A DNA stretch of 64,000 nt from Ensifer adhaerens (GTDB lineage Bacteria > Pseudomonadota > Alphaproteobacteria > Rhizobiales > Rhizobiaceae): positions 2,317,501 through 2,381,500 of the forward strand of contig NZ_CP118611.1 of the NCBI RefSeq assembly GCF_028993555.1, in the 5' to 3' direction. Positions 17,827 through 32,819 of the stretch are shown one piece after another. Below the pieces are notes generated by a model. It did not search any database and was not told the origin of the DNA. It saw only the letters and a program-made list of their open reading frames with translations. Position 1 is the stretch's first letter. Every line of letters starts with the position of its first letter. A program made the translations under genes and the position numbers.

Positions 17827-18237
17827 TCAGTCGAGCTTTGCGACCACCTCGGCCAGTTGGTCGATAAAGCGTCGCCACCCGACGGTTGCGCCCTGGTAAT
17901 AAGACTTCTGTTCCGCCTTGAAGCCGCGTTGCTCCATGCGCAAGCTGGTCCCGCCGGCAGTCGGAACAAGCGTCCAGGTGACGACGCTCGAGAGATCCTT
18001 GGTGTCCCAGCGATAGGCAAGCGAGCGATCCTTCTCGATCGTCTCGACTTTGCAGTCGACCTGTCCCCAATCGGCCGAGAGCGTGAATCGGCGGCCCACT
18101 TCGGGCACGAAATCGTTCCGCATCAGCCATTCGGCAATCAGATGGGGCTGGGTCAGCGCGCGCCAGAGCTTTTCCGGTGCATGGGCAAATTCGCGTTCGA
18201 CCACGACAGAGCGTGTTGTTTCAGTTGTTTCGGTCAT
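17827..18237 (-). CDS. SRPBCC/AHSA1-family protein
   Basis: A 136-residue START/Bet v1-fold protein of the AHSA1 group. It shows the N-terminal VVVEREFAHAPEKLWRALTQPHLIAEW signature (in outline) and a C-terminal helix GWRRFIDQLAEVVAKL. The fold binds hydrophobic ligands; the biochemical role of these ArsR-linked members is not established. Its ATG overlaps the ArsR stop by four bases (ATGA), so it is coupled to and probably controlled by that repressor. Confidence 0.85.
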   Translation of the reverse strand: MTETTETTRSVVVEREFAHAPEKLWRALTQPHLIAEWLMRNDFVPEVGRRFTLSADWGQVDCKVETIEKDRSLAYRWDTKDLSSVVTWTLVPTAGGTSLRMEQRGFKAEQKSYYQGATVGWRRFIDQLAEVVAKLD

Positions 18238-18557
18238 TGATCCATTCTCTTCAGCAAATCATCGAGATCGTCGAAGCGGTCCTGCCAGAAGCCGGCCATC
18301 TCCGTCGTCCAGTCAACCAGGGTCGCAAGCGCTTCGCGCTTGGCACTGTAATAGGTGTAACGGCCTTCATGCCGATCGTGCACGAGGCCCGCCGCCTTCA
18401 GGATCTTCAGATGTTTGGAGACGACCGGCTGCGAAACGCCGGCATCAGCCAGCAATCCGACGACCGTCGTATCTCCTTGGCGGCAGAGATGCTCGAAGAG
18501 CCCACGGCGTGTGGGATCGGCGAGCGCCCGGAATACCGCATCCTGCAACTGCGACAT
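18234..18557 (-). CDS. ArsR-family transcriptional repressor
   Basis: A 107-residue winged-helix protein: ALADPTRRGLFEHL, then VVGLLADAGVSQPVVSKHLKIL (HTH, outline), then the wing HDRHEGRYTYYSA. No metal-binding Cys pair is seen, so it is of the non-metal type common beside AHSA1 genes. The start codon is only four bases from a 44-bp perfect inverted repeat (18562-18605), which strongly suggests autoregulation and an almost leaderless or very short-leader mRNA. Operon: arsR, AHSA1, perhaps the small membrane protein. Confidence 0.9.
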   Translation of the reverse strand: MSQLQDAVFRALADPTRRGLFEHLCRQGDTTVVGLLADAGVSQPVVSKHLKILKAAGLVHDRHEGRYTYYSAKREALATLVDWTTEMAGFWQDRFDDLDDLLKRMDQ

Positions 18558-18561
18558 GTCT

Positions 18562-18605
18562 CATACCCAATTGGCTATGTGATGACGTATAGCCAATTGG
18601 GTATG
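18562..18605. promoter_or_regulatory. Perfect 17-bp inverted repeat, ArsR operator
   Basis: CATACCCAATTGGCTAT (18562-18578) and ATAGCCAATTGGGTATG (18589-18605) are exact inverted copies separated by ten bases. Each arm has its own internal symmetry around CCAATTGG, so the element reads as two operator sites one helical turn or so apart. It lies immediately before the ArsR start. Confidence 0.8.
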
Positions 18606-18660: not shown

Positions 18661-19239
18661 CTACCCAGAGGATACGTCGATCGCGTCGCCGATGGCGTAG
18701 AAGTGGCCACCAGCGACGTGGTGCAGGCTGCGCAGCGCCGGATCGGCAGCCTCGAATATCCAGCGCCCGCCGCGAAACACGCGGTCGTCCGCCCAGGCTG
18801 CAACGACTTCGGCTACGAACAGATCATAGCGGCTTTGAATGGACTGCTCGGGGATTATTCGGCAGACCAGCCAGGCGGAACACCCGGCAACGAAGGGCAG
18901 GCCATGCTCCGGCATCTCGAAGAGTTCCACGCCAGCCCTGTGAAGCTTGTCCGGGTCGTCGTTGAGGCTCGTCGTGCCGACTGCATGGGTCAGTTTCGCC
19001 TGCAACGCAGTCGGCACCTGAATAACAAAGACACCCGCCTCCTCCACCAGGCCGCGAGTGCGGGTGGCGCTGTCGAGCACCACCGTGAGCTTCGGCGGAT
19101 CATAGTCGAGCGCGCAAGCCCAGGCCGCAGCCATCACGTCCTCCACCCCGCCGTGACGGGCTGAAACCAGCACCGTCGGACCGTGGTTCAACAGCCGATA
19201 GGACTTTTCGAGGGGTACGGGACGAATATGGGCAGTCAT
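18661..19239 (-). CDS. Flavin reductase-like domain protein (DIM6/NTAB family)
   Basis: A 192-residue protein with the flavin-reductase-like split barrel: TVLVSARHGGVEDVMAAAW, PPKLTVVLDSATRTRGLVEEAG and a final HHVAGGHFYAIGD (His/Gly FMN-binding segment), each cited in outline. Such proteins bind FMN and supply reduced flavin to a partner oxygenase, or act as NAD(P)H:flavin oxidoreductases. It is divergent from the Rieske oxygenase gene, but Rieske enzymes need an iron-sulfur reductase rather than free flavin, so the neighbourhood does not prove a shared role. Confidence 0.78.
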   Translation of the reverse strand: MTAHIRPVPLEKSYRLLNHGPTVLVSARHGGVEDVMAAAWACALDYDPPKLTVVLDSATRTRGLVEEAGVFVIQVPTALQAKLTHAVGTTSLNDDPDKLHRAGVELFEMPEHGLPFVAGCSAWLVCRIIPEQSIQSRYDLFVAEVVAAWADDRVFRGGRWIFEAADPALRSLHHVAGGHFYAIGDAIDVSSG

Positions 19240-19500: not shown

Positions 19501-19519
19501 TTGAATGAACGTTCAGCAA
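19501..19519. promoter_or_regulatory. BetI-type operator A, upstream of the Rieske oxygenase
   Basis: TTGAATGAACGTTCAGCAA contains the perfect core TGAACGTTCA and ends 14 bases before the start codon. It matches operator C (read on the minus strand) at 18 of 19 positions and shares TTGAATG..CGTTCA with operator B. BetI repressors are known to bind such ATTGAA...TTCAAT-like dyads. Its position overlapping the expected ribosome-binding/promoter zone fits direct repression. Confidence 0.8.
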
Positions 19520-19533
19520 AAATGGAGACCGTG

Positions 19534-20730
19534 ATGAACGAACTGGTCCGCGACATTTCCGTTCCGAACAACTGGGATCGCCGTGGGCTGCCCGGATGGT
19601 GCTATCACAGCAACACCCTGCTCGAACTGGAGAAGGAGCACGTCTTTCGGCAGCATTGGCAGATCGCCTGTCACGTCTCCGACGTGCCGGAACCGGGCAA
19701 CTACGTCACCATGGACGTCGTCGGCGAGCGGGCCCTGATCCTGCGCGGCCAGGACGGCACCATCCGCGGCTTCCACAACATCTGCCGCCATCGCGGCTCG
19801 CGGGTCGTCGCCGACGACAAGGGCACTTGCCGCAACGCACTCGTCTGTCCGTTTCACGGCTGGGTCTACAATCTCGACGGAACGCTGCGCGGGGCGGCGC
19901 GCCCGCGCTCCTTCCCGCCGCTCGACAAGCAGGCCTTCGGGCTGATCCCGCTTGAACTGGAGGTGTGGATGGGCTTTGTCTTCATCCGCTTCCGCCCGGG
20001 TCCGCAGCCTTCAGTCGCCGAGCTGATGCAGCCTTTCGCCGAAGAGCTCGGCCAGTATGGGACCGAGGCGCTGGTACCGACGGAGGGCATCTGGACCCAT
20101 GAGAGCCCCGTCAACTGGAAATCGGTGCGCGACGTGGACAATGAAGGCTACCACGTCGCCATGGCACACCCGGCGCTGCAGGATCTCTATGGCTCAACCT
20201 ACTACGACGAGCCCTTTGTCAACGGTCTCTGCCGCTCTTTTGCGACCTACAACCCGCATGCCGGCCGCCGCTGGAGCGTCAAGCAATACGTCAAGGTTGC
20301 GCCGGAAGCGACGCATCTGCCTGAGCGGCTGCGCAAGGCCTGGATCTATTTTGGCCTGTTCCCGAATGCGGTCATTGCGGTGACGCCGGAGAGCGTGCAG
20401 TTCTATCAGGAGTTTCCGCTTTCGACCGGCAAGACGCTGTTGCGCGGCGCGATCTATCGCTATCCCAACGAGACGCGCCAGCAGCGGCTCGCCCGCTACC
20501 TGGCCTTCCGCATCGACCGCGACACGCAGGCCGAAGACGTGCAGCTGACGATCTGGTCGAACGAATCGATGACCTCGAAAGCCTTCGGTGGCTTCTATCT
20601 GTCCGACCTCGAATATGGCGTGCGCACCCACCACGACCATCTGCGTGCCGTGCTGCCGGTCATGACGCTCGATCAAGCGCCACGTGAAGAGGAGATCGCT
20701 GCCGTCAATGCATCGATGGCGGCGCGCTAA
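19534..20730 (+). CDS. Rieske non-heme iron oxygenase, CntA/GbcA-like
   Basis: A 398-residue oxygenase alpha subunit. Rieske [2Fe-2S] ligands are C84, H86, C105 and H108 (NICRHRG, VCPFHGW). The catalytic iron site shows H207 and H212 in NEGYHVAMAH, with a later Asp in the QAEDVQ segment. The bridging residue three before the first His is E204, not the usual Asp; Glu here is a feature of carnitine oxygenase CntA. This suggests N-demethylation or C-N cleavage of a quaternary amine. ATG at 19534 is chosen because GGAGA precedes it; METV at 19522 lacks one. No dedicated reductase gene lies nearby. Controlled by operator A. Confidence 0.87.
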   Translation: MNELVRDISVPNNWDRRGLPGWCYHSNTLLELEKEHVFRQHWQIACHVSDVPEPGNYVTMDVVGERALILRGQDGTIRGFHNICRHRGSRVVADDKGTCRNALVCPFHGWVYNLDGTLRGAARPRSFPPLDKQAFGLIPLELEVWMGFVFIRFRPGPQPSVAELMQPFAEELGQYGTEALVPTEGIWTHESPVNWKSVRDVDNEGYHVAMAHPALQDLYGSTYYDEPFVNGLCRSFATYNPHAGRRWSVKQYVKVAPEATHLPERLRKAWIYFGLFPNAVIAVTPESVQFYQEFPLSTGKTLLRGAIYRYPNETRQQRLARYLAFRIDRDTQAEDVQLTIWSNESMTSKAFGGFYLSDLEYGVRTHHDHLRAVLPVMTLDQAPREEEIAAVNASMAAR

Positions 20731-20767
20731 GCCAAAACAAAAAGAAGGGCCGGAGATTGTCCGGCCC
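20731..20767 (-). terminator. Intrinsic terminator of the aminotransferase transcript
   Basis: Read on the minus strand, the stem GGGCCGGA/TCCGGCCC (20747-20767, five-base loop) is followed by TTCTTTTTGTTTTG. That is a textbook stem plus T-tract, about 110 bases after the aminotransferase stop. On the plus strand it can also form just after the Rieske gene but lacks a T-run there. Confidence 0.8.
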
Positions 20768-20878
20768 CTGAAATCGGCCCTGCCGGGGAATGCTGGCGGG
20801 GCCGAGGCATTTCTGGAGAGAGCGGGGTCAGGAAAAGTGCGTGCGGCTTTCCTCATCCCGCTCTGAAATGTTGTGCTC

Positions 20879-22291
20879 TCAGCCCCTCCAGAGTCCCTCG
20901 CGCACGAGTTCGTCCATGGTCCTGCGAATGCTGACGTCGAGGATACTGGCCAACTCGTCGATCTGGCCGGCAGTGATCGTCAGCGGCGGCGACATCACGC
21001 ACATGTTGATCAGCGGCCGGACGAGCAGACCAAGCTCCTGGCAGTGCCGGTCGATGCGTTTGCCCACCTCGAGATCGAGCGTCAGCGGATTGTTGCTGAC
21101 GCGGTCGGCCACGCACTCGACACAGGCCATCAGCCCGAGACCACGCACCTCGCCGACAAGCGGCAAGTCTTCGAGCCGCTTCAGCGCCTGCTGGAAATGC
21201 CCGGAGATCGAGCGGGCATGGTCGAGCAGCCCATCTTCCAGAATGTCGAGATTCTTGAGCGCCACCGCGCAGCCGATCGGGTGGCTGGAATAGGTGAGGC
21301 CGTGGGCGAACATCGCGTCGGGATGGTTCGACTGCCGCAGCGTTTCGAGGAGTTGCGACGAGATCATCACCCCGCCGAGCGGGAAATAGCCTGACGTCAC
21401 CCCCTTGGCGAAGGTGATCATGTCAGGCTCGATCGAGAAGACGGTTTTCGAGGCGAAGACCTCACCAAGCCGGCCAAAGGCCGTCACCACCTCGTCGGCA
21501 ATGAAGAGGATATCGTATTCGGCGCAGAGCGCCCGCATGCGCTGAAGGTAGCCAGCGGGCGGAACGATGACGCCGCCGGACGCCATGACCGGTTCGGCAA
21601 TGAAGGCACCGATCTTCTCGGCACCGCGCTCTTCGATGACGGCCCGGAATTCGGCAACGAGGAAGTCGCAGAACTCCGCCTCGGATTGGCCCGCCGGGCG
21701 GCGGAACGGATTGGGACAGGTGAGCTTGATCACCTGATCGGAGGCGCTGTCCATCCAGTCGTGATCGCGCGGGCGTCCATTCAGCGAGGCCGAGAGATAG
21801 GTCGAGCCGTGATAGCCGCCCTGGCGCGAGACGATCAACTTTTTCTCGGGCCGACCGCGCACATTGTTCATGAACTGCATGAACCGCAGCGCCGTCTCGA
21901 CCGCCGAGGATCCGCCGGTCGTGTAGAACACATGGCCAAGATCGCCGGGCGCATGACCGGCAAGCCTTTCGGCGAGCTCTACCGAGGGCGTGCTCGTCGT
22001 GTACCAAGGTGAATTGTAGGAAAGCACCAGTGCCTGGTCGTGCAGCACCTGAGCGAGTTCTGCCCGGCGATGCCCGACATTGACGCACCACATACCGGCG
22101 GGGCCGTCGATCAGGCGGCGTCCCTCGCCGTCGGTCACGTAGATCCCGTCGCCGCTTTCGATCGCCCCGCGCGATTCGGCGCCGATGCTGCCGGCAACCG
22201 GCCATGGCTGGACGAGATGCCGTGCCGCCAGTTCAGAGGGTTCGTCGGCCCCTTCATTGTGCATATCTGCCAGATCGCGCTTCGCAGCCAT
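20879..22291 (-). CDS. Class III PLP-dependent aminotransferase
   Basis: A 470-residue omega-aminotransferase-type enzyme. It has the cofactor-phosphate segment FYTTGGSSAVETALRF, the Asp-containing strand FIADEVVTAFGRLG, and the Schiff-base Lys in ITFAKGVTSGYFPLGG. The family transfers amino groups from omega-amino acids or diamines to pyruvate or oxoglutarate. ATG at 22291 follows TAGGGGAGA; in-frame sequence upstream is not needed. It is divergent from the transporter permease genes and shares operator B with them, which puts the transamination step in the same pathway as the imported amine. Confidence 0.87.
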   Translation of the reverse strand: MAAKRDLADMHNEGADEPSELAARHLVQPWPVAGSIGAESRGAIESGDGIYVTDGEGRRLIDGPAGMWCVNVGHRRAELAQVLHDQALVLSYNSPWYTTSTPSVELAERLAGHAPGDLGHVFYTTGGSSAVETALRFMQFMNNVRGRPEKKLIVSRQGGYHGSTYLSASLNGRPRDHDWMDSASDQVIKLTCPNPFRRPAGQSEAEFCDFLVAEFRAVIEERGAEKIGAFIAEPVMASGGVIVPPAGYLQRMRALCAEYDILFIADEVVTAFGRLGEVFASKTVFSIEPDMITFAKGVTSGYFPLGGVMISSQLLETLRQSNHPDAMFAHGLTYSSHPIGCAVALKNLDILEDGLLDHARSISGHFQQALKRLEDLPLVGEVRGLGLMACVECVADRVSNNPLTLDLEVGKRIDRHCQELGLLVRPLINMCVMSPPLTITAGQIDELASILDVSIRRTMDELVREGLWRG

Positions 22292-22364
22292 CACGAAATC
22301 TCCCCTAATATCTGACGATAAAAGCCACTCAATCACATGATATCAATCGATAAACTTTCATTTT

Positions 22365-22384
22365 ATTGAATGGCCGTTCAATCA
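22365..22384. promoter_or_regulatory. BetI-type operator B, aminotransferase/permease divergent promoter
   Basis: ATTGAA (22365-22370) and TTCAAT (22377-22382) are perfect inverted arms around TGGCCG. The site shares TTGAATG and CGTTCA with operators A and C. It lies 74 bases before the aminotransferase start and 147 bases before the permease start, so one repressor could shut both directions. Confidence 0.75.
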
Positions 22385-22530
22385 ATATTGCAGAAATTCC
22401 GCTTGCGTTCAATCCCGATTTGCGTTTTGCTAAATCAGGGAACACGAGAAGGCGGATACCGCCACGGGATGGATTGAATGAAGCGATCGCTGCATTTCCA
22501 GTGTCCACGCTCGACGCACTGCGCGAGGGC

Positions 22531-23460
22531 ATGCTGATGGCGGTTCTGTCAGACACAGGGATGGAGGATCGGCCCGCAGACCCGCCGAAAAGCCGAACGC
22601 GCTGGATCGCCAGCGAAGAGGCCAGCGGCCTCGCCCTCATCTCGCCGACACTGCTTTACGCGCTTGCCCTGCTCTTCCTGCCCGTCCTGATCGTCATCGC
22701 CTACAGTTTCTGGACCCAGGACTATCTGACGATCGACCGCACCTTTACCCTTCAGAATTACCGTACCGCGCTTGGCGAGCCGATCTACCAGGACCTGCTC
22801 CTCCGCTCGCTGGTCATCTCGCTGGTCGTGAGCGTTGTCACCGTCACGGTTTCCTACCCGATCGCCTGGTTCATCTCCTTCCATGGCGGGGTACACAAAA
22901 ACCTCTGGCTGTTCCTGATCACCGTGCCTTGCTGGACGAGCTATCTGCTGCGCGTCATGTCGTGGAAGGTCATTCTCGGCTATGGCGGCGTGATGAATAC
23001 CGGGCTTCTGTCGATCGGCCTCATCGACAAGCCACTGACGACGTTGCTCTACAATTCCAATGCCGTCGTCATCACGCTCGTCCATAGCTGGGCGGCGTTT
23101 GCGATCCTGCCGATCTACGTGTCGCTGGAGAAGGTCGACCGCTCACTGATCGAAGCGGCGCACGATCTCGGCGACAACAAGCTGATGAGCTTCCTGCGCG
23201 TCACACTGCCGCTATCCTTGCCTGGCGTCATCTCCGCCTTCCTGATCGTGATGATCCCGACCGTCGGCGACTACGTCACGCCGAAGCTCGTCGGCGGCAA
23301 GGACGGGGTGATGATCGCAACCGCCATCCAGGCGCAGTTCGGCAAGGGCGCCAACTGGCCGCTCGGCGCCGCCCTGTCCGTGACGACCATGGTGGTCGTC
23401 TCGGCGATAGCCGGGCTTGTCGTTCTGATGCTCAAGCTGCTGGTGAGGTTGACGAAATGA
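22531..23460 (+). CDS. PotB-like ABC permease
   Basis: A 309-residue inner-membrane permease of the spermidine/putrescine (PotB) type with six hydrophobic segments and the EAA loop DRSLIEAAHDLGDNKLMSFL (outline), which docks on the ATPase. Several ATGs are possible: 22531 (preceded by GCGAGGGC), 22537 and 22561. The frame stays open back to 22366, but that stretch contains operator B and reads as leader. First of three overlapping genes permease-permease-ATPase. Confidence 0.87.
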   Translation: MLMAVLSDTGMEDRPADPPKSRTRWIASEEASGLALISPTLLYALALLFLPVLIVIAYSFWTQDYLTIDRTFTLQNYRTALGEPIYQDLLLRSLVISLVVSVVTVTVSYPIAWFISFHGGVHKNLWLFLITVPCWTSYLLRVMSWKVILGYGGVMNTGLLSIGLIDKPLTTLLYNSNAVVITLVHSWAAFAILPIYVSLEKVDRSLIEAAHDLGDNKLMSFLRVTLPLSLPGVISAFLIVMIPTVGDYVTPKLVGGKDGVMIATAIQAQFGKGANWPLGAALSVTTMVVVSAIAGLVVLMLKLLVRLTK

Positions 23461-24281
23461 GTGGTCGTCACGGCATTCCGAAGTCCCGCTGGTTACCCGC
23501 TTATGTCGGCCTCTACCTGCTCTTCCTCTATTTCCCGATCCTGCTTCTGCCGATCTTCTCGTTCAACAACGCCTCGACCACGACCTTCCCGCTCGCAGGC
23601 TTCACCGCCAAATGGTACGCGTCGCTCTGGGGCAATTCGGCGATGCTGGAAGCGGCCCGCAACAGCCTGATCGTCGGCATATCGGTTGCGATCCTCAGCA
23701 CCGTTCTCGGCATCTGTGCGGCTCGCGCGCTGACCCGCTATCGCTTCCGCGGCAAGAAGCCGGCGACCGGTCTCATCATGGCACCGCTGTTTCTGCCCGA
23801 GATCATCGTGGCGGTGTCGCTGCTGATGGTCCTCTTGCAGCTCGGCCTGGAGCTTTCATTGGTCACCGTGATCCTCGGGCAGGTGATCTTCTGCCTGCCC
23901 TATGCCATGTCGGTCCTGATTTCCGGCTTCGACGGCTTCGACCGTTCGCTGGAAGAAGCCTCTCTCGATCTCGGCGAAACGGCGATCGGCACCTTCCGTC
24001 GGGTGACCTTGCCGGTGGTCGCGCCGGCGATCATCTCGAGCCTGCTGGTATCGTTCACGGTGTCGCTCGACGAATTCATCCTCGCCTTCTTCCTCTCGGG
24101 CACCGAGCCGACGCTACCGGTCTATATCTGGGGCCAGCTGCGCTTCGCCGCCAAGCTACCGGGCGTGCTGGCGCTTGGCAGTTTGATGCTCCTGATCTCG
24201 ATCCTGCTTCTCACTCTTTCGGAATTCATTCGCCGCCGCGCCGAACACAGGCTCAGGGCACAGGGAGCGCAGCATGCCTGA
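23457..24281 (+). CDS. PotC-like ABC permease
   Basis: A 274-residue permease of the PotC type: six membrane segments, MAPLFLPEIIVAVSLLM and the EAA loop with EEASLDLGETAIGTFRRVTLP (outline). The start overlaps the preceding permease stop by four bases (ATGA) and its end overlaps the ATPase start by eight. The heterodimer PotB/PotC-like forms the import channel for the amine bound by the protein at 25407-26489. Confidence 0.9.
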   Translation: MSGRHGIPKSRWLPAYVGLYLLFLYFPILLLPIFSFNNASTTTFPLAGFTAKWYASLWGNSAMLEAARNSLIVGISVAILSTVLGICAARALTRYRFRGKKPATGLIMAPLFLPEIIVAVSLLMVLLQLGLELSLVTVILGQVIFCLPYAMSVLISGFDGFDRSLEEASLDLGETAIGTFRRVTLPVVAPAIISSLLVSFTVSLDEFILAFFLSGTEPTLPVYIWGQLRFAAKLPGVLALGSLMLLISILLLTLSEFIRRRAEHRLRAQGAQHA

Positions 24282-25362
24282 TAAACCGATGATCGCGATC
24301 GATGGCGTCAACAAGTTCTACGGGATCTACAAGGCGCTCGACAACGTCTCGCTCGACATAGCCGCCGGCGAGTTCTTCTCGCTGCTCGGCCCCTCCGGCT
24401 GCGGCAAGACCACACTTCTGCGCTCGATCGCCGGTTTCGACACGCCGACCGAAGGAGATATCCGCATCGACGGGCAATCGGTGATCGGCGTGCCGCCGAA
24501 CCGCCGACCGACCAACATGGTCTTCCAGAACTACGCGATCTTCCCGCATCTCGATGTCGAGGAAAATGTGGCCTATGGCCTGAAGCGGCTAAAGCTCGAT
24601 GCTTCCGAGGAGCGGCGACGCGTCGTGGCCGCGCTAGAGCAGGTGCGGCTCGGCCATCTCGGCAAGCGCCGGGCGCATGAACTGTCAGGCGGCCAGCGCC
24701 AGCGCGTGGCGCTGGCGCGCGCCCTGGTGATGCGCCCGAAGGTGCTGCTCCTCGACGAGCCGTTGTCGGCGCTCGACAAGAAGCTGCGCGAGGAAATGCA
24801 GGTGGAGCTGCGCACGCTGCAGCGCGCCGTCGGCATTACCTTCATCCTCGTCACCCACGATCAATACGAGGCGCTGGCGCTTTCCGACCGCATCGCCGTG
24901 ATGTTCGGCGGCCGCATCGCGCAGGTTGCGACGCCGAAGGAAATCTACCAGCGGCCCAACACCCGGCAGGTCGCCGATTTTCTCGGCGGCATGAATTTCA
25001 TGAAGGCGCGCGTGACCAATGAGACCGCGACACGCATCTCCGTCGAGACCCCGCGCTTCGGCGGCGTCACGGTCGACAAGCCGCTCGGCTTCGTCGCCCG
25101 CAACGGCGCGGCGACGATCGGCATCCGGCCGGAACGGCTAAGGGTCCTCTGGGACGAGGCCCGCTCTGACTTCGAGGTCGCAGGCAAGGTGGTCGATCGA
25201 CACTATTTCGGGGAAATCACCCATCTGATCGTCGATATTCCCGGCCTCGAGCAGCCACTCTCGGTTTCCGAAACCAACAATTTCGGCGCCGACGATATTC
25301 CGGTCGGCGATACGGTGCGGCTCGCCTACGATCCCGACGCGCTGGTCGCCGTTGCCGACTGA
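24274..25362 (+). CDS. PotA-like ABC transporter ATPase
   Basis: A 362-residue import ATPase. Walker A GPSGCGKTT (39-47), signature HELSGGQRQRVALARAL near 133-149, Walker B VLLLDEPLSALD, switch His in LVTHDQYEAL, and a C-terminal TOBE regulatory domain from about 285 (IGIRPERLRV). Belongs with the two preceding permeases. A perfect 11-bp-stem hairpin follows the stop. Confidence 0.93.
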   Translation: MPDKPMIAIDGVNKFYGIYKALDNVSLDIAAGEFFSLLGPSGCGKTTLLRSIAGFDTPTEGDIRIDGQSVIGVPPNRRPTNMVFQNYAIFPHLDVEENVAYGLKRLKLDASEERRRVVAALEQVRLGHLGKRRAHELSGGQRQRVALARALVMRPKVLLLDEPLSALDKKLREEMQVELRTLQRAVGITFILVTHDQYEALALSDRIAVMFGGRIAQVATPKEIYQRPNTRQVADFLGGMNFMKARVTNETATRISVETPRFGGVTVDKPLGFVARNGAATIGIRPERLRVLWDEARSDFEVAGKVVDRHYFGEITHLIVDIPGLEQPLSVSETNNFGADDIPVGDTVRLAYDPDALVAVAD

Positions 25363-25371
25363 CAAGATTGA

Positions 25372-25396
25372 GGCGAGCCGTGAACCACGGCTCGCC
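25372..25396. terminator. Hairpin between convergent ATPase and binding-protein genes
   Basis: GGCGAGCCGTG (25372-25382) and CACGGCTCGCC (25386-25396) form a perfect 11-bp stem with a three-base loop in the 44-bp gap between two convergent stops. No T-tract follows on either strand. Confidence 0.6.
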
Positions 25397-25406
25397 AAAC
25401 TCCGGC

Positions 25407-26489
25407 TCAATAACCCGATTTGATCTTCTCGAACTCCGCGATCATGCGCTGGCGCAATTCGACCGGCATCGGTGACTGGAACAGCGTGTTGGCCAGGAAC
25501 TTCGACACGTCGGCATAACCCTTGTCGGCGAGGATCTTCGGATCGACCTGCGCCATGCCGCGGGCGTTCGCATGGCCATAGCCCCAGGATTCGACGATGT
25601 AGGGGGTGATCGCCGGATCGGTGATCGAGTTCAGGAAATCATACTGCTCGTCAACCGGCGCTGTCGCGCCCTTGAGCCGGACATAGCCGCAAACCCAGGT
25701 CGAAAGCCCCTCGGTCGTGTCCTTCTTGATCGCTGCGGGAACGCCATCGGCCTGCAGCGTCGTCGCGGTCTCGTTCCAGGCCCAGGCGAGATCGACCTCG
25801 CCGCTGGCGATCGCCTGGCTCAGGTCGGTGTTGTCGGTCCAGTAGAGGCGGACGTTCTTGTGCACTTCGCGCAGGAAATCCGACGCCTGCTTGAACTGCT
25901 CGTCGGTCATCGTCGTCCAGTCCTTGACGCCGATGGCGAGGCTTGCGAGCGCATAGGCATCGTCGACATTGTCGCCGATCGAAACCCGGTCCTTGAACTT
26001 CGGATCGGCAAAGGCCTTGAGCGACTTGACCTCATCTTCCTTCACCGTATCGGTGCGGTAGGTGAGCACGGTGTTGCCCCATTCGAAAGGCAGCATCCAG
26101 GCCTTGCCATCGGGCGTCGTCATCAGCCCCTTCATCGCGGCGATGCCGGGATCGACGTCGTTCCAATAGGTGAGCTTCGAGGTGTCGAGCGGCTCGATCA
26201 GCCCCGCCTCGCGCCATTTGGCAACACTTTGCGAACAGGGATGCGCGAGATCGGCCTTGAAGCCGGAGCGCAATTTCTGGAAGGCCTCTTCCTCGTCGCC
26301 GAAGAAGCTGAAATCCGGCTCGTCTCCATGCTTGGCGGTGTAGGACGGATGGAAGGCCGGATCCTCGTAGCCGGACCAGTCGAAGATCGTGAGGTTGTCT
26401 GCGGCAAGCGCCGGCAAGGCGGTGGTTGAGACAAGCGAGGCGATGAAGGCGCCTCCCAAGAATTGCCTGCACGCGTTCACCAATGTCAT
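25407..26489 (-). CDS. PotD/PotF-like periplasmic substrate-binding protein
   Basis: A 360-residue binding protein with a signal peptide (ends ...TTALPALAA-DN) and the PotD start LTIFDWSGYEDP, then ADLAHPCSQSVAKW, WMLPFEWGNTVLTYR and AWAWNETATTLQ. Several Trp residues (W148-region and W/N/E in AWAWNET) could form an aromatic cage for a cationic amine, which is an inference. AGGAGGTTGGC gives an excellent ribosome site. It lies only 40 bases after the BetI-like gene on the same strand, so it belongs to the methyltransferase-betI transcript even though its permeases are encoded elsewhere in the cluster. Confidence 0.9.
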   Translation of the reverse strand: MTLVNACRQFLGGAFIASLVSTTALPALAADNLTIFDWSGYEDPAFHPSYTAKHGDEPDFSFFGDEEEAFQKLRSGFKADLAHPCSQSVAKWREAGLIEPLDTSKLTYWNDVDPGIAAMKGLMTTPDGKAWMLPFEWGNTVLTYRTDTVKEDEVKSLKAFADPKFKDRVSIGDNVDDAYALASLAIGVKDWTTMTDEQFKQASDFLREVHKNVRLYWTDNTDLSQAIASGEVDLAWAWNETATTLQADGVPAAIKKDTTEGLSTWVCGYVRLKGATAPVDEQYDFLNSITDPAITPYIVESWGYGHANARGMAQVDPKILADKGYADVSKFLANTLFQSPMPVELRQRMIAEFEKIKSGY

Positions 26490-26529
26490 GCCAACCTCCT
26501 CTATTCGGCCATTCCGGCGTTATCGTTCC

Positions 26530-27228
26530 CTATTTCGGCCCTTCCCGGGTGAAATGCTCGGGGAAGGCGACGAGCAGATATTCGACAGCCGCCGCATGCG
26601 CCTTTTCGCGCGTCAGACCGTCGCCCATCATCAGCCGCAGCCACAGCCCTTCCATCGATGCGCAGAGCGCCAGCGTCATGCCCTCGGGCTCGTAGGCGTA
26701 GCCACCCTCGTCCTTGAGCCTCTGGCAAAGCGCCAGGAAGATCTCCTGGTATTTGACGTCGCGCGCACCGCAGAGCGCCTGATAGGTCGGCCGCGACTTC
26801 GCCTCGCCCCAAAAGGCGCACCAGGCCGCAAGCTTGCGCTTGGTGCAGATCTTGCGATCGAAATCGCAGGCAACGAGTGCCCAGAGTTGCGCTGCCGCCT
26901 TGTCGCCAGCCTTTTCCAGCGCCGCGCCCCAATTGGCGGCATATTCGTCCGCCATATATTGCAGCGTGGCGATCAGCAGTTTTTCCTTGCTCTCGAAATG
27001 GAAGTTGACGATGCCGCGCGACAGGCCGGCGCCATCGGCGACGTCGGCCAGCGTCGTTTCAGAATAGCCGCGCTTCGCAAGCGAATCGATCGTCGCTTCG
27101 ATCAGTTGTTGCCGCCGGGTCTCTTTCGACGCCTTGCGTCCGCGCTTTTCGCTTTCGACCGCTTCCTGCACTTCAGGGGTGAGTTTCATCCGTACCGCCG
27201 TCTCGTTCTTCTTCAGACGCAGGTGCAT
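26530..27228 (-). CDS. BetI-like TetR-family repressor
   Basis: A 232-residue TetR protein. The HTH is at about 35-65 (TRRQQLIEATIDSLAKRG, LADVADGAGLSRGIVNFHF), and the C-terminal domain resembles BetI (AAWCAFWGEAKSRPTYQAL compared with KAWLAFWASS.HQP in E. coli BetI, from memory). BetI represses choline/betaine genes. The ATG at 27228 lies one base after the methyltransferase stop (TGATATG) behind GGAGC, so the two are coupled; an internal ATG at 27189 is a weaker choice. Three near-identical operators flank the cluster, one in front of its own transcript, so autoregulation is expected. Confidence 0.88.
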   Translation of the reverse strand: MHLRLKKNETAVRMKLTPEVQEAVESEKRGRKASKETRRQQLIEATIDSLAKRGYSETTLADVADGAGLSRGIVNFHFESKEKLLIATLQYMADEYAANWGAALEKAGDKAAAQLWALVACDFDRKICTKRKLAAWCAFWGEAKSRPTYQALCGARDVKYQEIFLALCQRLKDEGGYAYEPEGMTLALCASMEGLWLRLMMGDGLTREKAHAAAVEYLLVAFPEHFTREGPK

Positions 27229-27229
27229 A

Positions 27230-28039
27230 TCATGCTCCGCGCCGCATCGGCTTGATGCCACGCAGATGAGTGGGACAATGCTCACCACTGTCAAGCACCT
27301 TCTGCATGGCAGTCCAGGTCCGGACATTCTTGGTTACATAGGCCTCGCCGACCGCTGCGACTGCGGCCGAATGCAGCCCTCCCTGCAGCCGTGAAAGTTC
27401 CTGCCGCGCCACTTCGCGATACCAGTCGTTGCGGTTTTCGGCGCGCGTTTGCACGAAGCCTGCCTCCGCCATTGCGGCCAGATAGGCCCCGGCCGACGCC
27501 ATTCCGAAGCTTAAGCCCTCGGCCGCGAGATAGGACTTCATATCGTCTGACGGTTCGTCGTCATGGGCGATCAGCCAATCGGAAGCGGCAAAGACACCAC
27601 CGGGCGAAAGCACGCGGTAAATTTCGCGAAAGAGCGACCGCTTGTCGGGCACATGGACGAGCGCATCCTTGGAAAAGACGACATCGAAACTGCCGTCAAC
27701 GAAAGGCAACGGGCCGGGCGGCGCCTGGACGAAGGAAACGCCGGCAATGCCCGCGCGCTCGGCAGCCTCCCTTGCATGTGCAATCACCGGCGCCTCGACG
27801 TCGAAACCGGAGATGCCCAGCGGATGATAAGTCCTGGCGATATGCAGCGTCACGCCGCCGGCGCCGCAGCCGAGATCAAGGATGCGCTTGCCCACAAGAT
27901 CGAGACCGCCAAGTACACGATCGACCTCCTCGGGACCGCCAGGCGAAAGGTATCCCTCACCCCAGAGGACTTCCAGGAAACGGATGGCCGTATCGTCGTA
28001 TTCGACGGCGTGTCCCGTTTCTCGATCGACCGACGACAT
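27230..28039 (-). CDS. SAM-dependent methyltransferase, phosphoethanolamine N-methyltransferase-like
   Basis: A 269-residue class I methyltransferase. SAM motif I is [10 protein letters not shown] (53-62); the surrounding text [37 protein letters not shown] and [12 protein letters not shown] closely follows plant/protist phosphoethanolamine N-methyltransferases and glycine/dimethylglycine methyltransferases. An N-methyl acceptor is likely, direction and substrate unknown. ATG at 28039 is chosen for its AGGAGCTTGG leader; ATGs at 28054 and 28102 are in frame but poorly led. First gene of the transcript that continues into betI-like and the binding-protein gene. Confidence 0.83.
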
Positions 28040-28104
28040 CCAAGCTCCTGCCATATCAACTCTTGCTAAAAATCCTATCGCATTATCAGAGGATTGCAAC
28101 ATAT

Positions 28105-28123
28105 TTGCTGAACGCTCATTCAA
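28105..28123. promoter_or_regulatory. BetI-type operator C, methyltransferase/flavoprotein divergent promoter
   Basis: On the minus strand this reads TTGAATGAGCGTTCAGCAA, differing from operator A at one base. It lies 65 bases before the methyltransferase start and 60 bases before the flavoprotein start, centred in the divergent promoter, so it can control the betI-like gene itself and the catabolic operon on the other side. Confidence 0.82.
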
Positions 28124-28183: not shown

Positions 28184-29806
28184 ATGACGAAATACGACGT
28201 GGTGATGATCGGAGGAGGGCATAACGGCCTGGTCGCCGCCTGCTATTTGCAGCGCGCCGGACTGAATGTCGTCGTCCTTGAAAAGAACGACTGGGTCGGG
28301 GGTGCCGCGACCAGCCGCGAACTGACGCCGGGCTTCCTTTATTCGAACTGTTCCTATGTCTGCTCGCTGTTCCGGCCGGAAATCATGCGCGATCTCGAGC
28401 TGCCGAAACATGGGCTGCAGGTGATCTCCTACGAGGGCGGCGCGGTCCTTACCCGCGATGGCGACTATCTGGCCTCCTATCGCGACCACGATTCCCATCG
28501 CCGCGAGTTCGCCCGCTATTCCAGGCGCGACGCCGAGGCCTATGAGCGCTACGCCCGCGACGTCACCCGCCAGTGCCGCTTCATCCAGCCGTTGTTGATG
28601 CGCACGGCCCCCGACCCGTTCAGCTTCAAGCCGCGCGACATTTCCGAACTCATCTATCTTGCCAGGAAGTTCGGTGATTTCTCAGCGGCCGAAATGGCGG
28701 CGACCTTGCGCTTCTGGACCATGTCGATCGCCGACTTTCTCGACGAATATTTCGAGACCGATGTGATCAAGGCCTATCTTGCACTTTCGGGCATTATCGG
28801 CACCGCACTTGGGCCGATGTCGCCGGGGACTGCCTACGTGCTGCTGCACCACTACATGGGCGAGGTCGACGGTTCGGTCGGCGCCTGGGGCTATGCTCGC
28901 GGCGGCATGGGTGCCGTCACCAAGGCACTCGCCTCTTCGTTCCAAGCGTCCGGCGGCACGATCCGCACCGGCGCCGATGTCGCCAAGGTGCTGACCCGCA
29001 GCGGCCGCGCTTCCGGCGCAGTGCTTGCCAATGGCGAAGAGGTGCTCGGCAAACTCGTCGTCTCCAATGCCGACGTCAAGCGCACCTTCCTGAAGCTCGT
29101 CGACGAGGATGCCCTGCCGCAACGCTTCGTCCACCGTGTCCGCCACTTCAAGATGCGCGGCTCCTCAGGCAAGGTGAATATTGCCCTCGACAGCCTGCCG
29201 GAATTCCCGGCACTGCCGGCCGGCTCCTCCTGTATTCGCGGCGACCTGCACTTCACCGACAGCGTCGAGCGCATGGAGCGCGCCTACGACGACTGGAAGG
29301 CCGGGCGCTGGTCGGCCGACCCCTTCGTCGACATGATGATCCCGACAACGCTCGATCCGACGATGGCACCACCCGGCAAGCACTTTGTCTCCTGCTTCGT
29401 TCAGTACTGTCCGCCGAAGGTAGGAGGCAACGACTGGACCGACGCTGACCGTGACGCCTTCGCCGAAACCGTGATCAAGCAGATCAGCGACTATTCGCCG
29501 GGTTTCCGCGAGCGCATCCTGCACATGGAAGTGCGCACGCCGCGCGAGATCGAACAGGAGGTGGGGCTGACGGAAGGCAACATCTTCCAGGGCGAGCTGA
29601 CCTTCGACCAGCTGCTGTTCAATCGGCCGGTCCCCGGCTACGCGCAATATCGCAGCCCCGTGCGCGGGCTTTACATCTGCGGCTCGTCCACCCATCCGGG
29701 CGGCGGCGTCATGGGAGCACCCGGCCGCAATGCCGCCGCCGAAATCCTGCGTGACCTCCGCCACACCCCCTCAAACAAGATGAGCCCGGCCCATGACGTC
29801 ATTTGA
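28184..29806 (+). CDS. FAD/NAD(P)-dependent oxidoreductase, phytoene-desaturase-like (copy 1)
   Basis: A 540-residue flavoprotein with an N-terminal dinucleotide-binding fold ([10 protein letters not shown], 7-16, and the [14 protein letters not shown] acidic/Gly segment) and the C-terminal FAD motif [20 protein letters not shown] of the phytoene desaturase/amine oxidase superfamily. No carotenoid genes are near, so an amine or amino-acid-like substrate is more plausible. GGGGAGCCAC precedes the ATG at 28184. It overlaps the next flavoprotein gene by 14 bases. First gene of the operon controlled by operator C. Confidence 0.85.
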
Positions 29807-31346
29807 TGCCATCGTCATCGGCGGCGGCCACAATGGCCTGACCGCCGCCACCTTCCTCGCCCGCTCGGGCCGCAGGGTCCTGCTCGTGGAAGCCGGCGAC
29901 ACGCTCGGCGGTGCCGCGCGCGGCTATTCTTTCCATCCCGGCTACGCCAGCCCCGGCCTTGCCCACATCTTCAACCGGCTCGATCCGGAAGTGGCGGCAG
30001 CCCTTTCACTTCACAACAAGCGAAGCGAAGCCGCACCGACCGTGGTGCTGTCGCCGACCGGGCAACATGCGGTGCTGCGCGGCGGCTATGGCGAAGCGAT
30101 CGATGGGGTATCGCAAGAGGAGGCGAAACGCTTCCAGGACCTGCGGGGCAAGCTGGTGTTCCAGGCCGCCATCCTGAAGCGTTTCCTCAGGCGGCGCCCG
30201 CCGGAAATCGGCGAGCTGGCGCTTGCCGACCTTGCAACACTCGCCAGCGCCGGCCTCGGGCTCTTGCGCAAGGGGCGTGAGGAAAGCCGCGACTTCCTGC
30301 GCATGTTGCTGATGAACGTCGCCGATACCGTCGAGGAATATCTGACCGACGACCGGCTGAAGGCGCTGCTTGCCTTCGACGCGACGCTCGGCATCCACCT
30401 CGGGCCCCGTTCGCCGACCTCCTTGCTTGGTCTCTACTATCGGCTGACCGGCGAGATGCAGGGCGTGACCGGCGCCCAGCTGGTGGCCAACAGCGGCGGA
30501 CGCTCGGCGGCTGCCGCCTTCGAGGCCGCGGCGATGCAGGCCGGCGTCACGGTCAGGACCGGTGCGCGGGTGGCACGCATCATCGCCGATCGCGGACGCG
30601 CAACCGGCATCGTCCTTTCCTCCGGCGAAACGCTTGAGGCGGGCGCCATCGTCTCGGCGATCCATCCAAAGGCGACCTTCCTGGACCTTACGGATCCGGC
30701 CGAGATCGGCACCGGCTTCCGCCGCGCCATCGGCAACATCCGCTCGAAGGGCAACGTCGCCAAGCTCGATCTCGCGCTCGACCGCGTTCCGGAGTTCTCC
30801 GGTGTTGCCGCCGCCGATCTCAGCGGCCGGCTGGTGATCGCCCGATCGGTCGACCATGTCGAAGAGGCCTTCAATCCGGCGAAGTACGGTCAGTTCTCCA
30901 AGGATCCGGTGATGGAGATCACGCTTCCGAGCCTTGCCGATCCGTCGCTGGCGCTTTCCGGCGGCTGTACGCTGTCGGCGCTTGTCGAGTTTGCGCCCTA
31001 TGCGCTTGCCGACGGCTGGGACAAGGGCAAGCCGGCCTTTCAGAAAATCGTGCTCGATACTCTGGAAGCCTACGCCCCTGGCATCAACGGCAGCATTCTG
31101 GGGACGAGCTTGCTGACACCCGTCGATATCGAAGAACGCTACAACCTGCCGGGCGGGCATTGGCACCACGGCGAACTCCAGGCAGATCAGTTGCTCGTCA
31201 ACCGTCCCGTCAATGCCGCATCGGGCTACTCGACGCCGCTCAAGGGCCTCTATCTCGCCAGCGCCGGCGCACATCCGGGCGGCGGCATTTCCGGCCTGCC
31301 CGGGCTGCTTGCCGCCCGCCAGGTCCTTTCGGAGAAACGCGCATGA
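29793..31346 (+). CDS. FAD/NAD(P)-dependent oxidoreductase, phytoene-desaturase-like (copy 2)
   Basis: A 517-residue paralogue of the preceding gene. [10 protein letters not shown] (7-16), LLVEAGDTLGGAARG, and the late GLYLASAGAHPGGGISGLPG are intact. The two copies are clearly diverged, so they may form a heteromer or act in sequence. Overlaps: 14 bases with copy 1 upstream and four (ATGA) with the GcvT-like gene downstream. Confidence 0.85.
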   Translation: MTSFDAIVIGGGHNGLTAATFLARSGRRVLLVEAGDTLGGAARGYSFHPGYASPGLAHIFNRLDPEVAAALSLHNKRSEAAPTVVLSPTGQHAVLRGGYGEAIDGVSQEEAKRFQDLRGKLVFQAAILKRFLRRRPPEIGELALADLATLASAGLGLLRKGREESRDFLRMLLMNVADTVEEYLTDDRLKALLAFDATLGIHLGPRSPTSLLGLYYRLTGEMQGVTGAQLVANSGGRSAAAAFEAAAMQAGVTVRTGARVARIIADRGRATGIVLSSGETLEAGAIVSAIHPKATFLDLTDPAEIGTGFRRAIGNIRSKGNVAKLDLALDRVPEFSGVAAADLSGRLVIARSVDHVEEAFNPAKYGQFSKDPVMEITLPSLADPSLALSGGCTLSALVEFAPYALADGWDKGKPAFQKIVLDTLEAYAPGINGSILGTSLLTPVDIEERYNLPGGHWHHGELQADQLLVNRPVNAASGYSTPLKGLYLASAGAHPGGGISGLPGLLAARQVLSEKRA

Positions 31347-32566
31347 TGATGCATCTGACCGCCCTTCGCCGCGCAGCCCAAGGCCATATCCTGATGCCCC
31401 GGCTGGAAACACCGTTTCACCAGCGCCTTGCTGCGCTCAGCGAAACCAACGACTGGTACAGCTGGGCAGGCTACAAGGCGCCGCATTCGATCTTCGACAC
31501 CGAGCTCGAATATTTCGCGATCCGTTCGACGGCGGCGCTGTTCGACATCTCGCCGATGGTGAAATACCGCATCCGCGGCGCAGATGCTGAGCGCTATCTC
31601 AACCGGCTGACGCTGCGCAACGTCGCCAAGCTCGGAATTAACCGCGTGCACTACACGGCCTGGTGCGACGACCACGGCCACGTGCTCGACGACGGCACGC
31701 TGTTTCGCCTCGGACGGGACGATTTTCGGCTCTGCTGCCAGGAGCGGCATCTCCCTTGGCTTCTCGACAGCGCCGGCGGATTTTCCGTCGAGATCGTCGA
31801 GGAGACCAGCGAGATCGCCGCGGTCGCGCTGCAGGGGCCAACATCCTTTGCTGTCCTCGAAGCCGCGGGCTTTGCCGGCGTCGAGGGTCTAAAACCGTTC
31901 CAGCTCTCGGACTTCTCGCATCTCGATGGCACGGTGACGATCTCACGCACCGGCTTTACCGGCGATCTCGGCTACGAACTCTTTGTCGACGCCAAGCGGG
32001 CGCTGAGCCTCTGGGACCGTCTATGGGCAGCCGGCACTGGTTTCGGCCTGAAGGCGATCGGCTATGACGCACTCAACCGCGCCCGCGTCGAAGCAGGGTT
32101 CATCGTTGCCAATGCCGATTTCATCACGGCCGAGGCGGCCCTTCGGGCGGACCGCGAACGCTTGCCTGACGAGATCGGCCTCGACTGGCTGGTGGATGCG
32201 GAAAAGCCCTTCTTCAACGGGCGCGACGCCATCTTCCGAGCACGCGAGAGGAACACGCTGAAGCATGTGCTCGTCGGCCTTGAGATCGAGGGCAACATTC
32301 CGGCCGAGGGCGCAATCGTCTATCACCGTGGCAAGAAGGAAGTCGGCCTGGTGACGGCCGCCATCTGGTCGCCGCTTGCCAAGCGCAACATCGCCATTGC
32401 CAGCCTTTCGCGCCCGTTCGGCAGCCGCGTCGTAGACGACCTCTGGGTGGAGATCTATGCTCTGCGGGAGCTGCAATACCAGAAGCTGATGAAGCGGGCG
32501 CGCGTCGTCGCCCGGCCCTTCGTCAAGCTCGACCGCCGCTCGGCCAACCCGCCGGGCCGCTTCTGA
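31343..32566 (+). CDS. GcvT-like aminomethyltransferase / folate-dependent demethylase
   Basis: A 407-residue protein with the GcvT fold: YSWAGYKAPHSIFDTELEYFAIR, AALFDISPMVKYRIRGADAERYLNRL, ALQGPTSF, SRTGFTGDLGYELF and a C-terminal barrel domain (VGLVTAAIWSPLAKRNIAIA), all in outline. Relatives accept one-carbon units from N- or S-methyl substrates onto tetrahydrofolate (GcvT, DmdA, sarcosine and dimethylglycine oxidases). With a Rieske demethylase and flavoproteins in the same regulon, capture of released methyl or formaldehyde-level carbon is the natural role. The ATG at 31343 overlaps the upstream stop; a longer frame back to 31160 is inside the previous gene. Confidence 0.85.
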   Translation: MMMHLTALRRAAQGHILMPRLETPFHQRLAALSETNDWYSWAGYKAPHSIFDTELEYFAIRSTAALFDISPMVKYRIRGADAERYLNRLTLRNVAKLGINRVHYTAWCDDHGHVLDDGTLFRLGRDDFRLCCQERHLPWLLDSAGGFSVEIVEETSEIAAVALQGPTSFAVLEAAGFAGVEGLKPFQLSDFSHLDGTVTISRTGFTGDLGYELFVDAKRALSLWDRLWAAGTGFGLKAIGYDALNRARVEAGFIVANADFITAEAALRADRERLPDEIGLDWLVDAEKPFFNGRDAIFRARERNTLKHVLVGLEIEGNIPAEGAIVYHRGKKEVGLVTAAIWSPLAKRNIAIASLSRPFGSRVVDDLWVEIYALRELQYQKLMKRARVVARPFVKLDRRSANPPGRF

Positions 32567-32576
32567 GAGTACGAGC

Positions 32577-32819
32577 ATGGACGATGAGACGAAACGACAC
32601 TGGGAGATGATCAGGTTGCCGGCCGGGCAGGAATGGTCCGGCCGCGCCCGATACGCGGCCGCGATGTTCTTCTACCAACGCGGTTTGATGGATGCCGAAA
32701 CGCTTGAAGTCTACCGCATTTGCTCGCGGCTCGACGCGGAAGACCCGGCCACGGTCTTGCGCCGCTACCGGATCGGATCGGAGTGGTTGGCTCGGCTGGA
32801 GGGCAATGGTGCCTCTTGA
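32577..32819 (+). CDS. Small uncharacterised protein closing the catabolic operon
   Basis: An 80-residue soluble protein beginning ten bases after the GcvT-like stop. It is rich in Arg, Trp and Tyr (RHWEMIRLPAGQEWSGRARY, FFYQRGLMDAETLEVYR) and predicted largely helical. I do not recognise the family. Tight spacing suggests it is cotranslated and perhaps a subunit or assembly partner of one of the flavoproteins; no motif supports a reaction. Confidence 0.65.
   Translation: MDDETKRHWEMIRLPAGQEWSGRARYAAAMFFYQRGLMDAETLEVYRICSRLDAEDPATVLRRYRIGSEWLARLEGNGAS

Follow-up and report, generated by a model that had tools for sequence, protein, structure and literature searches.

Organization and predicted functions of the gene set

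The window, a stretch of 64,000 nucleotides corresponding to positions 2317501-2381500 of a 2.78 Mb contig, contains the following genes, given with the basis of their assignment.

19534..20730, plus strand: alpha subunit of a Rieske oxygenase; carnitine monooxygenase CntA is the closest chain of solved structure
20879..22291, minus strand: class III aminotransferase (PRK07036, over the cut-off)
22531..23460, plus strand: Pot-type permease 1 (family scan; start codon uncertain)
23457..24281, plus strand: ABC permease 2 (Pfam scan)
24274..25362, plus strand: Pot-type ABC ATPase (Pfam and NCBIfam scans)
25407..26489, minus strand: PotD-fold solute-binding protein with an altered pocket (family scan and alignments)
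26530..27228, minus strand: BetI-like TetR-family regulator, the proposed repressor (family scans; helix LSRGIVNFHFES)
27230..28039, minus strand: SAM-dependent methyltransferase (family scans)
28184..29806, plus strand: flavoprotein 1, CrtI/CrtO-like, amine-oxidase superfamily (family scans)
29793..31346, plus strand: flavoprotein 2, CrtI/CrtO-like, amine-oxidase superfamily (family scans)
31343..32566, plus strand: GcvT-like protein, closest match in the C-terminal part of trimethylamine N-oxide demethylase
32577..32819, plus strand: conserved 80-residue protein

Eleven of these genes encode proteins with known domains in Pfam and NCBIfam scans, and the 80-residue open reading frame behind the GcvT gene is conserved in relatives, so that the set comprises 12 genes, as the preliminary description of this DNA had stated. 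Gene order and strands also agree with that description, with five transcripts from three sites. No Rieske reductase gene was found among the regulon's genes, and Pfam and NCBIfam scans revealed no BetA/BetB-type dehydrogenase among the 12. The SAM-dependent methyltransferase is difficult to place in the pathway proposed below.

Judging from their families, the genes probably encode the uptake of an amine and the removal of its methyl groups. The bridging glutamate of the Rieske protein, three residues before the first iron histidine, is kept (E204) in 36/36 rows of the alignment, window included; the role assigned to this glutamate follows that of E205 in PMC7948474. The equivalent of CntA Tyr203 is missing, this position being D202 in the window and Asp in 33 of the 36 rows (Tyr in the other 3), and the Cys-X-X-Cys pair found by the iron site of some group V members only is absent (the window protein has G205 and V208 there). 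The best NCBIfam model for this protein is GbcA, but with a score of 131 for a cut-off of 670. The GcvT-like protein contains the folate-binding domain PF01571 (182.9 bits, cut-off 25.6) and falls under the cut-off of the glycine cleavage T-protein model TIGR00528 (153.8 bits for 235.85). The binding protein has the PotD/PotF fold, and the equivalents of PotD E36, D168 and D257, which we take to be the acidic amine-binding residues, are replaced by G40, N174 and C267 in all 49 aligned rows.

The 80-residue protein has no Pfam family and is predicted to be all-helical (model pLDDT 92.8). Matches were obtained by tblastn (E ≤ 1e-3) in 63 of the 84 loci searched, and 15 residues are invariant across 39 rows; comparison of the model with the PDB returned no match at E ≤ 0.001, to which we attach no further meaning. 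The protein may belong, as a subunit, to a complex of flavoprotein and GcvT.

A polyamine, an opine or a GABA-like compound, oxidized by the Rieske protein and the flavoproteins at the carbon beside the nitrogen and not at an N-methyl group, is possible as substrate, if rather unlikely. The transporter is indeed of the Pot type, the predicted binding protein aligns also with opine- and GABA-binding proteins, the Rieske protein has an Asp where CntA has Tyr203, and an extra flavin amine oxidase occurs in 32 of the 80 related loci described below; nevertheless, the PotD acidic residues are consistently lost (49/49 rows), and the GcvT-like protein indicates folate-bound one-carbon units. Homarine and trigonelline were provisionally set aside as substrates, as neither a ring-opening enzyme nor an aldehyde dehydrogenase family occurs among the 12 genes.

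Three operators and their rarity

The three sites from which the transcripts depart share a common sequence.

19501-19519, plus strand: operator A, TTGAATGAACGTTCAGCAA, with its first base 33 bp ahead of the start codon adopted for the Rieske gene (19534)
22366-22384, plus strand: operator B, TTGAATGGCCGTTCAATCAA, between the divergent aminotransferase and permease genes
28105-28123, minus strand: operator C, TTGAATGAGCGTTCAGCAA, between the divergent methyltransferase-regulator-binding protein and flavoprotein-GcvT transcripts

The exact pattern TTGAATGNNCGTTCA was found at the three places named in the preliminary description. Operators A and C are identical at 18 of 19 positions, as had been read directly from the sequence; operator B does share TTGAATG and CGTTCA with both, but starts at 22366 and not, as described, at 22365. 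The operator core is a 16-bp palindrome, TTGAAYGNNCRTTCAA (hereafter box I), with half-site TTGAAYG. The window contains exact TTGAATGNNCGTTCA three times, versus none in 100 dinucleotide shuffles of its sequence, and the whole 7.77 Mb genome also holds three, all of them operators A, B and C. A site with one mismatch to TTGAATGNNCGTTCA is present at C1:3764778. A fourth place matching TTGAAYGNNCRTTCAA with at most one mismatch (C2:1525028) lies inside a 458-codon open frame and was taken as chance. With two mismatches, TTGAAYGNNCRTTCAA matches 46 places in the genome, the same number as the reversed control, therefore only close matches are informative; when this looser search is confined to the window, three sites are attained in 5 of 100 shuffles. 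A scan for sigma-70-like promoters gave none at the operators, with an overall count near that of shuffles, and an Rfam scan of the window at gathering cut-offs gave no matches.

The search of related genomes relied on a pattern derived solely from the window, with the reversed pattern as control. Among 16 genomes of the genus, the exact site is present in 7/7 of those encoding flavoprotein 1 and in 3/9 of those without it. Flavoprotein 1 (E ≤ 1e-150) was detected in 45 of 199 genomes of the family, 40 of which have the exact site, 37 of them within 20 kb of the gene; the remaining eight (45 minus 37), counted on exact matches only, have none within this distance. The site is found anywhere in 17 of the 154 family genomes lacking flavoprotein 1 (Fisher p 6e-23) and in 57/199 overall, while the reversed control pattern occurs at one place across all 199.

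Conservation of genes and operators in related loci

The best 80 of at least 583 relatives found by scanning with flavoprotein 1 were kept as loci, each spanning at most 10 kb per side of this gene, so that many of them stop short of the far-end genes, particularly the Rieske gene. The first 53 (L001-L053) are mostly named Rhizobium, Shinella, Mesorhizobium, Phyllobacterium etc., with some metagenome bins; the boundary between L053 and L054 was chosen post hoc. At 50% identity or more, flavoprotein 2 and the GcvT-like protein are present in 53/53 of these loci, the regulator in 52/53, the binding protein in 49/53, the aminotransferase in 47/53, each permease and the ATPase in 45/53, the methyltransferase in 39/53 and the Rieske protein in 23/53.

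The box was scored on 14 positions, with thresholds of at least 12 before the Rieske and flavoprotein 1 genes and at least 11 before the aminotransferase gene. It precedes the Rieske gene in all 17 testable loci, 27-35 bp before the start, and the aminotransferase gene in all 39 testable ones; flavoprotein 1 has it no more than 300 bp away in 53/53 loci and no more than 150 bp away in 43/53. The maximum score in the shuffle control was 11 (one shuffle per stretch, 150 bp for flavoprotein 1, the 300-bp count having no shuffle control of its own). Farther than 500 bp from these gene starts, 12 places reach a score of 12 in the 1.10 Mb of L001-L053. Conserved genes with lost operators, the outcome that the preliminary description had named as contrary to its reading, did not occur in the testable loci of L001-L053. 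In L054-L080, box I reaches 12 before flavoprotein 1 in one of 25 usable loci (L079), two having been dropped as too short; these loci at first gave the impression of operator loss, until a second box came to light beside the regulator gene.

Several features of the surroundings were also recorded. The extra flavin amine oxidase gene (for example L041:4677-5987) lies between the ATPase and binding-protein genes in the loci examined and is absent from the window. In a bin assigned to Steroidobacteraceae (L078:17709-21392), genes for an MttB-like methyltransferase and an OYE-type flavoprotein are found near the flavoprotein/GcvT genes. In the window, a flavin reductase-like gene (18661-19239) adjoins the Rieske gene; it has no counterpart at 50% identity or more in L001-L053 (0/53), where many loci end earlier. 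Beyond it, an inverted repeat, ATACCCAATTGGCTAT...ATAGCCAATTGGGTAT (18563-18604), directly precedes a small minus-strand open reading frame (18234-18557) that may encode an ArsR-type regulator.

Co-variation of the recognition helix and the box

The recognition helix LSRGIVNFHFES is invariant in 53/53 rows, made up of the window plus 52 loci. The helix is SHGLV in a second group of loci, most of which bear Rhodobacterales names, with H and L in place of R71 and I73; upstream of the regulator gene these loci have a different box, TTGACWGNNCWGTCAA (box II), with half-site TTGACWG. We counted helix and box in 79 loci, using 1100 bp upstream of the regulator throughout and leaving out L085, which is the window itself. 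Box I (TTGAAYGNNCRTTCAA) accompanies the helix SRGIV in 61/62 loci, most scoring 12 or 13 (L084, the miss, scores 11), and box II (TTGACWGNNCWGTCAA) accompanies SHGLV in 11/11; the six loci with other helices include one with box I. Of 1580 mononucleotide shuffles of these upstream stretches, 6 reached a score of 12/14 for box I and 8 did so for box II. When a shorter upstream stretch was used, eight SRGIV loci were boxless, namely the window and seven methyltransferase loci, for which the stretch was too short. One locus with MSRGIV (L056) has no box within 350 bp and a box I of 12/14 about 385 bp upstream.

Box II was derived from the very loci on which it was then scored. Since the loci are related, several coming from the window's own genus, the change of helix and box may represent one or few events, and independent changes were probably few. 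In 149 genomes of another family, exact box II is present in 18 and the reversed control in 15. Flavoprotein 1 (E ≤ 1e-220) also occurs in 18 of these genomes, with exact box II present in four and absent from 14; in the four, one of which is the genome of L060, box and gene are no more than about 1.5 kb apart. Genomes of this family without flavoprotein 1 have it in 14/131 cases. Allowing one mismatch, box II was found in 8/9 genomes behind the loci and the reversed control in 5/9; in six genomes, the sequence found is identical to the box next to the regulator gene. As its genome-wide count resembles that of the control, box II is informative by its place and not by its rarity. These patterns suggest that the box is tied to the regulator encoded in the cluster.

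Relationship of the regulator to BetI

The window regulator contains both a TetR_N domain and the BetI-type C-terminal domain PF13977, and scores 109.9-110.5 bits against the BetI equivalog TIGR03384, under the cut-off of 201.3. The BetI model has 11 matches in the genome at E ≤ 1e-8, of which this protein ranks third by score. The first two, with 238 and 234 bits, are genuine BetI genes located 2.8 kb apart on another contig (C1:654637-655200 and C1:657983-658537), each with its own perfect palindrome upstream (TTGATTGACTCATCAATCAA and TTGACCCATGGGTCAA), to which their products presumably bind. The Ruegeria BetI box is ATTGACG*CGTCAAT (PMC12442346), and the window sites, with half-site TTGAAYG, do not correspond to it. 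The term BetI-type operator used in the preliminary description calls for caution, as the half-site is unlike those of Ruegeria and of the genuine BetI genes and the protein falls under the equivalog cut-off.

With 11 such places in one genome, and TetR boxes being alike in form, the boxes might be bound by another TetR-family regulator while the protein encoded in the cluster controls something else; we consider this improbable, as box and in-cluster regulator co-occur and co-vary, no other convincing box place exists in the genome and the two genuine BetI genes have different upstream palindromes. An ordinary glycine betaine/choline pathway under BetI, brought to mind by the BetI-like regulator and by GbcA as the best Rieske model, is very improbable given the scores (131 of 670 for GbcA, 110 of 201 for BetI), the lack of a BetA/BetB-type dehydrogenase among the 12 genes and the genuine BetI genes elsewhere. 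Taken together, these comparisons suggest that the operators belong to the regulator encoded within the gene set, which appears to form a local BetI-like regulon of its own and not a choline regulon, because helix and box co-vary and the genuine BetI genes carry different palindromes.

Proposed mechanism

We thus propose, with a probability of roughly 0.66, that a BetI-like repressor and three operators control five transcripts for the breakdown of an N-methylated amine. Operator conservation and helix/box co-variation support the arrangement of one regulator, three operators and five transcripts put forward in the preliminary description, whose overall interpretation is partly supported; its "one imported compound" and "demethylation" are compatible with the gene families. 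Regulator binding, repression, ligand, reaction order and substrate class are what we infer in the following scheme. The regulator (26530-27228) would bind the three 16-bp palindromes TTGAAYGNNCRTTCAA and hold down five transcripts, including its own, until released by a ligand, either the compound imported by the Pot-type transporter or a breakdown product. The substrate would be an N-methylated amine, probably quaternary or tertiary, from which the Rieske oxygenase would take off the first methyl group using O2. The two flavoproteins would then oxidize further N-methyl groups, tetrahydrofolate would receive the carbon from the GcvT-like protein, and removal of the freed amine would fall to the aminotransferase. 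Several observations weigh against this scheme: the relatedness of the loci, the low genome-wide specificity of exact box II, the eight flavoprotein-bearing family genomes with no exact site nearby, the altered Rieske residues, the lack of a reductase gene in the regulon, the ill-fitting methyltransferase and the negative promoter scan.

More tentatively, the two CrtI/PYROXD2-like flavoproteins, the free-standing GcvT and the 80-residue protein could form a folate-coupled N-demethylase in an undescribed aerobic pathway whose substrate would be a quaternary amine, for example trimethyllysine or a trimethyllysine-derived betaine. Flavoprotein 1 may be related to PYROXD2, judging from the truncated UniRef names of its relatives. 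Human PYROXD2 variants show an association with N6,N6-dimethyllysine or with the N2-acetyl form of this compound (PMC7878905, PMC13352909). If this assignment were true, the cluster would offer a bacterial model for human PYROXD2. More generally, the gene set opens a route to the function of those CrtI-like flavoproteins of the amine-oxidase superfamily labelled phytoene desaturases in databases. The regulon itself is compact and testable, and the methylated amine can apparently be used by many rhizobia and some Rhodobacterales. The occurrence in nature of two repressor helices, each with its own operator half-site, would help to decipher TetR/BetI specificity.

Comparison with known systems

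Searches of the open literature returned no account of this gene set, in agreement with the preliminary description, the homarine pathway being outside the comparison; the homarine catabolic operon (2026; cited in PMC13390433) likewise concerns an N-methylated compound in bacteria. The BetI choline regulon resembles the present one in its TetR-family regulator with PF13977, short palindrome and divergent promoters, but has the half-site TTGACG in place of TTGAAYG and betA/betB in place of the Rieske/flavoprotein/GcvT set. Glycine betaine demethylation proceeds through GbcAB, DgcAB and Sox, in this order. As in that pathway, a Rieske enzyme would act first, followed by flavoprotein and folate-linked GcvT-like steps, whereas the flavoproteins here are CrtI/CrtO-like in the family scan and the pathway would end with an aminotransferase and has its own Pot-type transporter. 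Compared with the group V Rieske enzymes CntA and the stachydrine demethylase Stc2, the window protein, for which CntA is the best solved-chain match, keeps the bridging glutamate but has neither CntA Tyr203 nor the Cys-X-X-Cys pair. Trimethylamine N-oxide demethylase shares the GcvT-like part (172 bits over 344 query residues), which here is a separate protein accompanied by two flavoproteins. To these comparisons, the present analysis adds a new element, the co-variation of the regulator recognition helix with its box.
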